Of a stretch of DNA of 64,000 nt, positions 28,165 through 33,384 are shown piece after piece. The position numbers were made by a program, and so were the translations under genes. The notes under the pieces were generated by a model. That model was not told the DNA's origin, ran no database searches, and worked only from the letters and a program-made list of their open reading frames with translations. Source of the stretch: Isosphaeraceae bacterium EP7 (lineage in GTDB: Bacteria; Planctomycetota; Planctomycetia; Isosphaerales; Isosphaeraceae); contig CP151667.1 of the NCBI GenBank assembly GCA_038400315.1, forward strand, positions 5,405,174 to 5,469,173. Reading direction: 5' to 3'. Positions within the stretch are counted from its first letter, which is position 1, and each line of letters opens with the position of its first letter.

Positions 28165-28187
28165 CTAAGTGGTTCATCCGGCAGGTG
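28165..28187 (+). repeat. IS630 left inverted repeat
   Basis: Left terminal repeat of the insertion sequence, containing AGTGGTTCATCCGGCAGGTG. It matches the right end in reverse complement at 20 of 23 positions. Confidence 0.8.
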
Positions 28188-29388
28188 ATTTGCAGGTGGA
28201 TGGAGGTATCTCCCAGGAGACCTCGCCATGGCCGCCCGCGTCCTTCTCCGCCCGATGACGTCCGAGGAGCAGCAGGCCATCGCCGAGTTGCTCCACTCGC
28301 GCACCGCCCCGGTCCGCCTGGTCGAGCGAGCCCGCATCGTCCAGGAGGCCGCCTACGGCCGATCGGCCCCCACCATCGCTGCGGCCCTCGGCTGCTCGCG
28401 GCCGACCGTCTATGCTTGGATCCGTCGCTTCAGCGAGCTGGGCATGGCCGGCCTCCAGGAGCGGCCCCGCGCCGGCCGACCGCCGACCTATACCGTCGAC
28501 CAGCGGGCCGAGGTCCTGGCCGTCGCGCTGACCGCCCCCCAGGACCTGGGCCTGCCCTTCGGCTGCTGGACGCTCGACCGCCTGGAGGCCTACCTCAACG
28601 AGCAGAAGGACATCGCCATCAAGCGGAGTCGGATCGACGAGATCCTCGCGGAGGAGGGCCTCCGCTGGCGCAAGCAGGAGACGTGGTTCGGCGAGCGGGT
28701 GGACCCCGAATTCGCCGAAAAAAGGGGGCCATCGAGCGACTCTACCGCGAGCCTCCGGCGGATTCGGCGGTCGTCTGCCTCGACGAAATGGGGCCGGAGA
28801 GCGCCAAAAGCTTCCCGGGACAGAACCCCCTGCGAACCAAGCCCGAGACGACGGCCGAGGGCAGCCGCCAGCCCGCCGGCCGCGCTCGGCAGGAGGCCGA
28901 CTACGGCCGCCGCGGCAAGGGTTACGTCTTCGGCGCCTTCCGACCCGCCACTGGCGAAGCCTTCACCCGCCCCTACGACAGCCGCTCGACCCGCAACTGG
29001 GTCGAGTTCCTCGGCCAGGTCGAGGCGTGGGTCCCGGCGGACGCCGAACGGGTCTACGCCATCCTCGACAACCTGAGCGCCCACCGCGCCACCGACGTGC
29101 TGCTGTTCAGCCTGGCCCATCCCCGCTGGGAGTTCGTCTTCCAGCCAGTCTCCGCGGCGTACCTGAACCTGATCGAGCCGTGGTGGAAGGTGCTGAGAAG
29201 CCTGGCGTTGAAGGGCCGCCGGTTCGAGACTTGGGAGGAGATCTGCCAGGCGGTCGAACGAGCGACAGCGTACTGGAACGCGCATCGTCACCCCTTCGTC
29301 TGGGGCCGTCGTCGTCGCCATCAACCACGCCGAACGCCGGGAATCGCCGCCGTACCGGGTGTCAGGACACTTGCCGGATGAGCCACTA
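28166..29388 (+). mobile_element. IS630-family insertion sequence
   Basis: A complete-looking insertion sequence of about 1.22 kb. Imperfect terminal inverted repeats lie at 28165-28187 and 29368-29390, matching at 20 of 23 positions; their shared core is TCATCCGGCA. Both ends are bounded by TA (28166-28167 and 29387-29388), the usual IS630/Tc1 target duplication, and the surrounding bases read CTAAG on both sides. A single transposase occupies the inside, in two frames. Confidence 0.85.
28228..29381 (+). CDS. IS630-family transposase split by a -1 frame change
   Basis: The transposase is encoded in two overlapping frames. The first (from ATG 28228, AGGAG upstream) holds the helix-turn-helix part: IAAALGCSRPTVYAWIRRF, GRPPTY, and the linker ILAEEGLRWRKQETWF. 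Similarity then moves to the -1 frame at the A6G5 tract 28718-28728, continuing KKGAIERLYREPPADS. The DDE catalytic triad is intact in the second frame: D in VCLDEMG (28782), D in ILDNLSAHR (29067) and E in LNLIEPWW (29175). The change could be programmed slippage, as known in other insertion sequences, or an inactivating indel; the phase A_AAA_AGG is not the standard A_AAA_AAG. Without the shift, neither frame alone makes a functional enzyme. Confidence 0.85.
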
Positions 29389-29743: not shown

Positions 29744-31279
29744 ATGACCCGAACGCCCCGGAAATCCCTGGTCCTCATTGTGGTCGCCCTGCTCGCGGCC
29801 TGTGAGGCCAGGTCCTCCTGCGCTCTTGCCCAGGTGCCCGACCTGGGAGGCGAGATGTCGGACGATTCCGGCATGCCGGCCAAGCGAGGAGGTGCCCGCA
29901 AGAAGGGACGGGTGAGGAGGGTGCCGCTCAAGGCCGGGGCCGAACCTAAGGCCCAGCCCAAAGAAGTCGAAAAGGAGATGGAGAAGGCCGCCGAGCCGGC
30001 TGAGACCAAGGCCGAGGCCGCTCCCGCCGATGCGGCCCTCGTCTTCTCGCGTGACATCGCGCCCGTGCTGGTCGCCAATTGCGCCCGCTGCCACAACGAC
30101 AAGCAGAAGCGCGGTGGGTTCGACCAGACGTCGTTCGCGGGCCTGATGAAGGGGGGCAAGACCGGCCCCGCCATCGTTGCAGGCAAGCCCGAGGAGAGTC
30201 GGCTGTTGCAGATGATCTCCGGAGAGGAGACCCCCAAGATGCCGCCGGGCCAGACGAACCTGGCGCCCGAGACCATCGAGCGGATCGCCAAATGGGTGAA
30301 GGCCGGGGCGATCCTCGACGCCGGCAAGAACCCGACCGCCCCGCTGGCCTCCTACGCCGCCAAGCCCGAGGACATCCGCAAGTCGCAGCTCTCCAAGCTC
30401 AGTCCCTCGGAGCGTGACACAAGGCTCGCCGAGCTGGCCAACGAGCGCTGGAAGAAGGCGAGCCCGTCGGGCCCCAAGCCCGAGATGGTGTCGGTCGACC
30501 GCCTCCACTTCCTCCTCTTCGGCGAGGTCCCCAAGGATCGCGCCATCGCGTCGCTCAAGGTTATCGAAGGGCAATACATCAAGCTCCGGAACCTCCTCTC
30601 GACCCGCGGCAAGCCCACGCCAAACTTCGACGAGAAGGTCAGTATCTACGCCTTCAAAGACCGGGCCACCTATGTCGAGTTCGTCCGCAGCGTCGAGAAC
30701 CGCGAGGTCGAGCAGGGAACTCAGGCCCACGCCAAGCTCGCCGTAGACGGCCCCTATATCGCCTGCATCGCCCCCCAGGCGGGCGGGGCCGAGGCCCCGG
30801 CGACGCAGGCCAAGAAGCCCGGCCGGTCCAGGCGCGACGAGGGGGGCGGAGCCGAACGGACCCTCAATGGGCTGGTAGCTGAAGAGCTTGCCATCGCCGC
30901 GATCAACCAGGCCGGCAAGCCACCCCGCTGGGTGAGCCTCGGCCTGGCCGCCCAGCTCGCCTCGCAGCTCGAGCCCCGCGCCACCTATTACAGGGCGATC
31001 CGCGGGGTCGCCTTCGAACAGGTCCGGCTCGGCTGGATCGCCAAGTCCACCGAGGCCCTGGGTGACGACGCCGACTCCGACAAGGCTCGCGCCGTCGGCT
31101 TCGCCATCTTCGAGTTCCTGGGCAACAACTTCAGCCAGGCTTACCCCGCGTTCATCCTGGGGATGCTCGAAGGGGGGAACAAGTTCGACGAAGTCGTCGC
31201 CGCCTGCCTCGACGCCAATCGTCAGCAGTTCCTCACGACCGCCGGCGAATGGGTTGGCCAGGCCTATGCCCAAAACTGA
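29744..31279 (+). CDS. Planctomycete-type cytochrome c protein with degenerate gluzincin-like C-terminal domain
   Basis: A 511-residue exported protein. A signal peptide (SLVLIVVALLAACEARSS) is followed by a charged Lys/Glu/Ala linker, then a PSCyt1-type cytochrome c domain: FSRDIAPVLVANCARCHND with haem motif C113-x-x-C116-H117, and ETPKMPPG supplying the methionine ligand region. The C-terminal half (VSIYAFKDRATYVEFVRSV, then LVAEELAIAAIN and PPRWVSLGLAAQLAS) has the layout of peptidase-MA/DUF1570 gluzincins, where HExxH and PxWLxEGLAE would be expected; here the zinc histidines are missing, so it is probably not a protease. That reading of the C-terminus is inference. The cupin gene follows after 12 bases. 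Confidence 0.8.
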   Translation: MTRTPRKSLVLIVVALLAACEARSSCALAQVPDLGGEMSDDSGMPAKRGGARKKGRVRRVPLKAGAEPKAQPKEVEKEMEKAAEPAETKAEAAPADAALVFSRDIAPVLVANCARCHNDKQKRGGFDQTSFAGLMKGGKTGPAIVAGKPEESRLLQMISGEETPKMPPGQTNLAPETIERIAKWVKAGAILDAGKNPTAPLASYAAKPEDIRKSQLSKLSPSERDTRLAELANERWKKASPSGPKPEMVSVDRLHFLLFGEVPKDRAIASLKVIEGQYIKLRNLLSTRGKPTPNFDEKVSIYAFKDRATYVEFVRSVENREVEQGTQAHAKLAVDGPYIACIAPQAGGAEAPATQAKKPGRSRRDEGGGAERTLNGLVAEELAIAAINQAGKPPRWVSLGLAAQLASQLEPRATYYRAIRGVAFEQVRLGWIAKSTEALGDDADSDKARAVGFAIFEFLGNNFSQAYPAFILGMLEGGNKFDEVVAACLDANRQQFLTTAGEWVGQAYAQN

Positions 31280-31291
31280 ACGGACCCATTC

Positions 31292-31627
31292 ATGAGCGAC
31301 GAAAACTACTTCATCGAGCGGGGAAGCGGATCACGCCACCCCCTCTTCCCCGGCGTGGTGGCCCTCACCACGACGGGCCAGGGGATGACCCTCTCGGTCG
31401 TCAATTTCGAGGCCGGCTCCGTCGTCCCCGAGCACGCCCACCCGCACGAGCAGATGGGCGTCATGTTGAGCGGGAGCCTGACCTTCCACGTCGGCGGCAA
31501 GACCAGGGTCCTCGGCCCCGGGGACCAGTGGCGGATCCCCGGCGGAGTCGCCCACCGGGTCGAGGCCACCCACGGCCCGGCCGTCGCCCTCGACGCCTTT
31601 CACCCCGTCCGCGACGACTATCGCTGA
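31292..31627 (+). CDS. Small cupin-domain protein
   Basis: A 111-residue single-domain cupin. The two metal-binding motifs are present: GSVVPEHAHPHEQMGVMLSG (two His, a Glu-like position and GxxxG) and PGDQWRIPGGVAHRVEA. Such proteins bind a metal and act as isomerases, dioxygenases or ligand sensors; the substrate is not inferable. It is 12 bases downstream of the cytochrome c protein gene, so probably co-transcribed, and its stop is eight bases from the convergent ggt stop. Confidence 0.88.
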   Translation: MSDENYFIERGSGSRHPLFPGVVALTTTGQGMTLSVVNFEAGSVVPEHAHPHEQMGVMLSGSLTFHVGGKTRVLGPGDQWRIPGGVAHRVEATHGPAVALDAFHPVRDDYR

Positions 31628-31635
31628 CGCCCCGG

Positions 31636-33384
<1,749 letters not shown>

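Follow-up and report, generated by a model that had tools for sequence, protein, structure and literature searches.

A planctomycete cytochrome c fused to a predicted gluzincin-fold domain without zinc ligands

A stretch of 64,000 nucleotides from the 7.2 Mb genome of Isosphaeraceae bacterium EP7 (contig CP151667.1, positions 5,405,174 to 5,469,173; the whole stretch is hereafter called the window) carries a gene that was described in a first-pass annotation as a cytochrome c domain joined to a peptidase-like domain without metal ligands. The question raised by this locus is what such a domain does beside a heme. Our preferred answer, which we hold with some reserve, is that the gene encodes an exported cytochrome of the c type, with a gluzincin domain free of zinc ligands as its C-terminal half, and that this dead domain binds a partner near the heme. 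Judged from the sequences compared here, the protein belongs to a conserved cytochrome-pseudopeptidase family, in which the loss of the zinc site is a property of the family and not a one-off.

The N-terminal half contains a PSCyt1 domain (PF07635), scoring 50.9 bits against a curated cut-off of 22, together with a CxxCH heme-attachment motif, in agreement with the cytochrome assignment and the CARCH motif of the first-pass annotation (Table 1). By analogy with cytochromes c in general, the conserved Met166 is the likely axial heme ligand. The domain is preceded by a Lys-, Ala- and Glu-rich linker, which itself follows a start resembling a signal peptide, suggesting that the fusion protein is exported. 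The whole protein matches 40 places in its own genome, the fusion gene itself included, the others mainly via the cytochrome region.

Residues 200-511 alone match no Pfam and no NCBIfam model, and a search of PDB sequences by the family profile returned 12 sequences, mostly C/EBP-beta coiled coils, with a best E of 0.039. From these searches, the resemblance to peptidases could be a chance one in a domain of another fold. That is very improbable given the structural and profile comparisons. An AlphaFold2 (AF2) model of the domain, based on an alignment with 20 relatives, has a predicted local distance difference test score of 86.1 and a predicted template modelling score of 0.85. The top four Foldseek matches of this model all belong to the M9 collagenases; M61 and M1 aminopeptidases and M30 lugdulysin come next, and a longer AF2 model again gives collagenases as its top structural matches. 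Using VIA-align 2, the domain model superimposes on 8jt1_A, an M9 collagenase peptidase domain, with a Z score of 15.9 and a root-mean-square deviation of 3.4 over 231 aligned residues. The best structural matches as a group, the collagenases 8jt1, 7wss and 4ar1, which are zinc peptidases, and lugdulysin 7bb8, a zinc peptidase by its title, reach Z scores of 14-16 but share just 8-12% identity with the window domain.

Profile comparison points the same way. Peptidase_MA_2 (PF13485) is matched by 19 of the 44 family members in alignment A2 at E up to 1; the best of these, at 3.3e-8, may pass the Pfam cut-off. The window domain itself gives no match to this model, and one relative scores 31.3 bits against a gathering score of 32.4. 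DUF1570 (PF07607) is matched by three of the 44 members (best E 0.044) and not by the window domain, while an NCBIfam scan of the same members gave scattered weak matches only. With hhalign, the family profile aligns to that of 18 relatives carrying HExxH over most of its length, with a probability of 99.9% and a pairwise E of 3.7e-32; the profile of the members from the window's own bacterial family reaches 99.5% and the window sequence alone 97.8%, compared to 0.04% for the control, one unrelated profile. The domain is therefore predicted to have a gluzincin fold, as the first-pass annotation had proposed; an unrelated fold, which would have spoken against that proposal, was not what the models gave.

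For the zinc site, 87 members were compared, 43 from the window's own bacterial family (same-family rows, window included) and 44 from the rest of the same class (class rows), together with a second tier of 19 relatives taken from among the weaker matches. HExxH is found in none of the 87 members (0/43 and 0/44). It is kept in 18 of the 19 second-tier relatives and in all six DUF1570 proteins encoded by the same genome as the window. The annotation had placed AEELA at the HExxH position; the absence of the motif stands, and the register probably shifts by one residue. Profile-profile alignment and MAFFT put residues 380-384 in the slot (Table 1); a gap-free alignment by eye to L084 gives the earlier register, with AEELA at residues 379-383. 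In either register, all 87 members lack a His at both zinc-His positions, and the only two His of the window domain (200-511), H255 and H329, both lie outside the slot. In the profile register, the catalytic-Glu position holds Glu in just 1/43 same-family and 1/44 class rows.

The third zinc ligand is also missing from the window domain. WVSLGLAAQL, correctly proposed earlier to stand in the place of WLxEGLAE, aligns with the WxxEG of HExxH proteins, a motif found in 19/19 second-tier rows. The ligand Glu is present in 13/43 same-family rows, 9/44 class rows and 19/19 second-tier rows, and of the six DUF1570 proteins mentioned above, all retain this Glu and four the Trp. The window domain thus has neither of the two marks of an active peptidase, HExxH and the third-ligand Glu of WxxEG, and the missing ligands suggest a domain that does not cut peptides. 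Compared to the Peptidase MA superfamily, PF13485 and the planctomycete HExxH relatives, the family is alike in its predicted fold, in its near full-length profile alignment and in a WxxxG motif; it differs in lacking HExxH, in its inconsistent third-ligand Glu and in being usually attached to a heme domain. One second-tier protein without a cytochrome, L149, has REMVH for HExxH and keeps the second His and WxxEG, which looks like a separate, partial loss.

The family is widespread within the class. Residues 200-511 are matched in 106 of 198 genomes, comprising 43 of 45 same-family genomes (the window's own counted) and 63 of 153 others; the listed members among those 63 all belong to the same class. 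The named matches closest to the C-terminal domain come from Isosphaeraceae and other planctomycete metagenome-assembled genomes, with Singulisphaera and Aquisphaera among 20 named loci. Across a phylum sample of 392 genomes, all matches of at least 164 bits belong to the same family or class, and the next scores 95.7 bits. No relatives were found on plasmids, or in viral contigs by a short peptide pattern search. The second tier comprises 14 proteins from 13 genomes in other parts of the phylum, 13 of these proteins having HExxH, and five from the class, all with HExxH; the five class genomes with such a relative also encode the fused form without HExxH.

A quick maximum-likelihood tree built from 112 rows places the proteins without HExxH together on one side of a single branch, requiring one change, with a Shimodaira-Hasegawa-like approximate likelihood ratio test support of 94, which lies under the 95 that the tool stars, in a midpoint-rooted tree with eight long end branches flagged. 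Thirteen rows of odd letter composition were also flagged, and L149, with its REMVH, was labelled within the HExxH group. Read in this way, the tree suggests that the zinc ligands were lost once, before the sampled planctomycete families split.

Fusion and zinc loss are associated strongly, though not strictly. A single CxxCH is present in 41 of the 43 same-family rows, the others being L038, truncated where its contig ends, and L029, which appears to have no cytochrome. Two CxxCH motifs are present in 40 of the 44 class rows. The exceptions are L073, with a single motif, L077, likewise truncated at a contig end, and two proteins from one other planctomycete family, L076 and L078, which are stand-alone, secreted-looking domains with neither HExxH nor a cytochrome. 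By its spacing, the heme nearest the domain is the shared one, as 86-87 residues separate CxxCH from the point where the model begins in L123, L124, L125 and L126. A CxxCH in L144 was considered as a cytochrome and rejected, as it lies in a Cys-rich stretch that by eye is zinc-finger-like.

The lost catalytic residues could also mark the gene of a once active peptidase that is now decaying as a pseudogene. The chance of this is practically negligible, as matches are retained in 43/45 same-family genomes and the gene is maintained under purifying selection. In seven same-family pairs, none including the window's own gene, the ratio of nonsynonymous to synonymous substitution rates (Nei-Gojobori) is 0.11-0.27 for the pseudo-gluzincin domain and 0.04-0.31 for the cytochrome. 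Mean column identity in the same-family alignment A1 is 50%. The pairing of a redox domain with a pseudo-protease, which the first-pass annotation had flagged as unusual, is supported by both sequence and predicted structure.

Table 1. Features of the fusion gene and the gene that follows it, in window coordinates.
Feature	Residues	Coordinates	Strand	Evidence
Cytochrome c-pseudogluzincin fusion protein	1-511	29744..31279	+	ATG open reading frame, 511 aa
Putative N-terminal signal peptide	1 to ~30	29744..29833	+	By eye: basic start, hydrophobic stretch, ALAQ
PSCyt1 cytochrome c domain core	113-168	30080..30247	+	PF07635, E 2.5e-13
CARCH heme-attachment motif	113-117	30080..30094	+	C, C and H invariant in alignment A5, 19/19 rows
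Met166, likely axial heme ligand	166	30239..30241	+	Invariant in 19/19 A5 rows, window included
Predicted pseudo-gluzincin (Peptidase MA-like) domain	200-511	30341..31276	+	AF2 model, VIA-align, hhalign against HExxH relatives
E380-E381-L382-A383-I384 in HExxH slot, both zinc His absent	380-384	30881..30895	+	Profile-profile alignment, MAFFT
WVSLG in WxxEG slot, L399 replacing the third zinc ligand Glu	396-400	30929..30943	+	
Cupin_2 gene		31292..31627	+	E 2.2e-16, 59.7 bits against a cut-off of 27.2

The cupin noted earlier as following the fusion gene is indeed there, starting 12 bases past its stop, and the arrangement was found in the window's own bacterial family only. With the window included, a cupin relative follows immediately and in the same orientation in 33 of the 41 same-family loci with room for one; of the 43 loci in all, eight have room and no cupin, and two (L041 and L057) have no room. 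An earlier clustering count of 19/21 loci was discarded, as it included overlapping shadow frames; L103, for instance, has only 106 bases after the gene.

Apart from the cupin, the recurrent neighbours change by lineage. In some same-family loci the gene order is LamB_YcsF, CT_C_D and CT_A_B genes, an unknown gene, the fusion gene, the cupin, PfkB and a gamma-glutamyltranspeptidase; the first three are PxpA/B/C-like. In the window, the cupin is immediately followed by a gamma-glutamyltranspeptidase (31639-33384, E 6.5e-150) encoded on the opposite strand, and a gene of its cluster is found near the fusion gene in four of 12 other wide same-family loci. A role in the gamma-glutamyl cycle was considered and not adopted, as the neighbours differ in class members. 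The fusion gene is immediately preceded by a transposase (28185-29381) in two overlapping frames, HTH_32 in one and DDE_3 in the other. The unknown gene that takes this upstream position in several relatives is located elsewhere in this genome (L105/L186, contig C1 near 4.22 Mb), adjoining genes of the PxpA- and PxpC-like clusters, which suggests that the locus has undergone rearrangement in this genome. In the class locus L170, a gene with an HELGH motif and no Pfam match (L170:4062-4922) belongs to a cluster with members in L171, L174 and L164. The cluster gene lies directly upstream on the same strand in three class loci, L170, L171 and L174, and on the other side and strand in L164; the L170 member might possibly encode an active small metallopeptidase beside the dead one.

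Since the whole family examined is without a zinc site, the domain has probably been re-used for binding instead of cutting. In the exported protein, the heme domain would carry electrons, while the peptidase-derived domain, no longer cutting, would bind a peptide or protein partner through its former substrate groove or its surface. Holding this partner near the heme would allow electrons to pass to or from it. In the window's own family, the strongest candidate for such a partner, or for a neighbour in the same pathway, would be the directly following cupin, and in most other class members the second heme might take part. A more specific version, in which the heme reads or sets the redox state, the groove captures the partner and binding is coupled to electron transfer, with the protein acting on the adjacent cupin or together with it in the window's own family, would make these proteins a class of redox-linked pseudopeptidases; at present this appears doubtful.

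Several observations weigh against partner binding near the heme. As L029, L076 and L078 indicate, the domain can occur with no heme attached to it. Cupin adjacency is seen in 0/20 class loci with some 6 kb available, and the recurrent neighbours in class members are instead glycine-oxidase-like, tRNA-deacylase-like and LarE-like (sequences read by eye). The HExxH helix has a mean entropy of 1.86 bits against 1.76 for the domain and is thus no better conserved than average, which does not favour a preserved groove; the WxxEG helix, at 1.28 bits, is better conserved than the average. Lastly, in the AEELA register the catalytic-Glu position holds Glu in 38/43 same-family and 15/44 class rows, and if that register is right, one catalytic residue would remain in those same-family members.

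This Glu, which in the profile register occupies the first-His position, also bears on whether the domain is still an enzyme, working via another metal site or mechanism, and other polar residues invariant in A1 (E113, Y139 and R173 in domain numbering) would be in line with this. Such an activity is improbable, since both zinc His are absent throughout the family in either register, the third-ligand Glu is kept only in a minority of rows, the two His of the window domain are outside the slot, and among the class members the slot Glu itself is found in only those 15 of 44.

Another possibility might be that the pseudo-gluzincin is a pure structural scaffold, docking the cytochrome into a larger electron-transport assembly while its groove binds nothing. 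This is possible, if unlikely. It would account for the unremarkable conservation of the HExxH helix, and a precedent is described in PMC12731061, namely the inactive M16 core proteins of the mitochondrial bc1 complex, likewise inactive peptidase relatives in an electron-transfer assembly. Respiratory genes are absent among the identified neighbour clusters, a weak counter-argument as most neighbours are unannotated. The M16 core proteins, moreover, have a peptidase fold family different from that of the gluzincins, and they are separate subunits whereas the window protein is a fusion.

The published context fits the preferred reading, in which the dead domain binds a partner near the heme, without proving it. 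PSCyt genes, whose heme domain in the PSCyt1 proteins (PF07635) is the same as that of the window protein, carry protein-interaction and carbohydrate-binding domains, their function being given as unknown; the partner domains named in the available part of that source (PMC5615132) are PSD domains, carbohydrate-binding modules and interaction domains, with no gluzincin-fold partner among them. Dead metallopeptidases are reported in PMC11266112 to work in protein-protein interaction and scaffolding, and the word "cytochrome" occurs there 0 times; likewise, "cytochrome", "peptidase" and "cupin" have 0 occurrences in PMC5352709. Among the papers listed by the literature searches, none named a cytochrome c fused to a gluzincin or pseudopeptidase in its title or abstract opening. 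As far as these searches go, PSCyt1 proteins and pseudopeptidases were each already known and their pairing is new. As a compact and widely conserved PSCyt member with a definable second domain, the protein would offer an accessible handle on whether PSCyt proteins transfer electrons to bound polymers or partners, and the pseudopeptidases would gain a heme-fused bacterial case.
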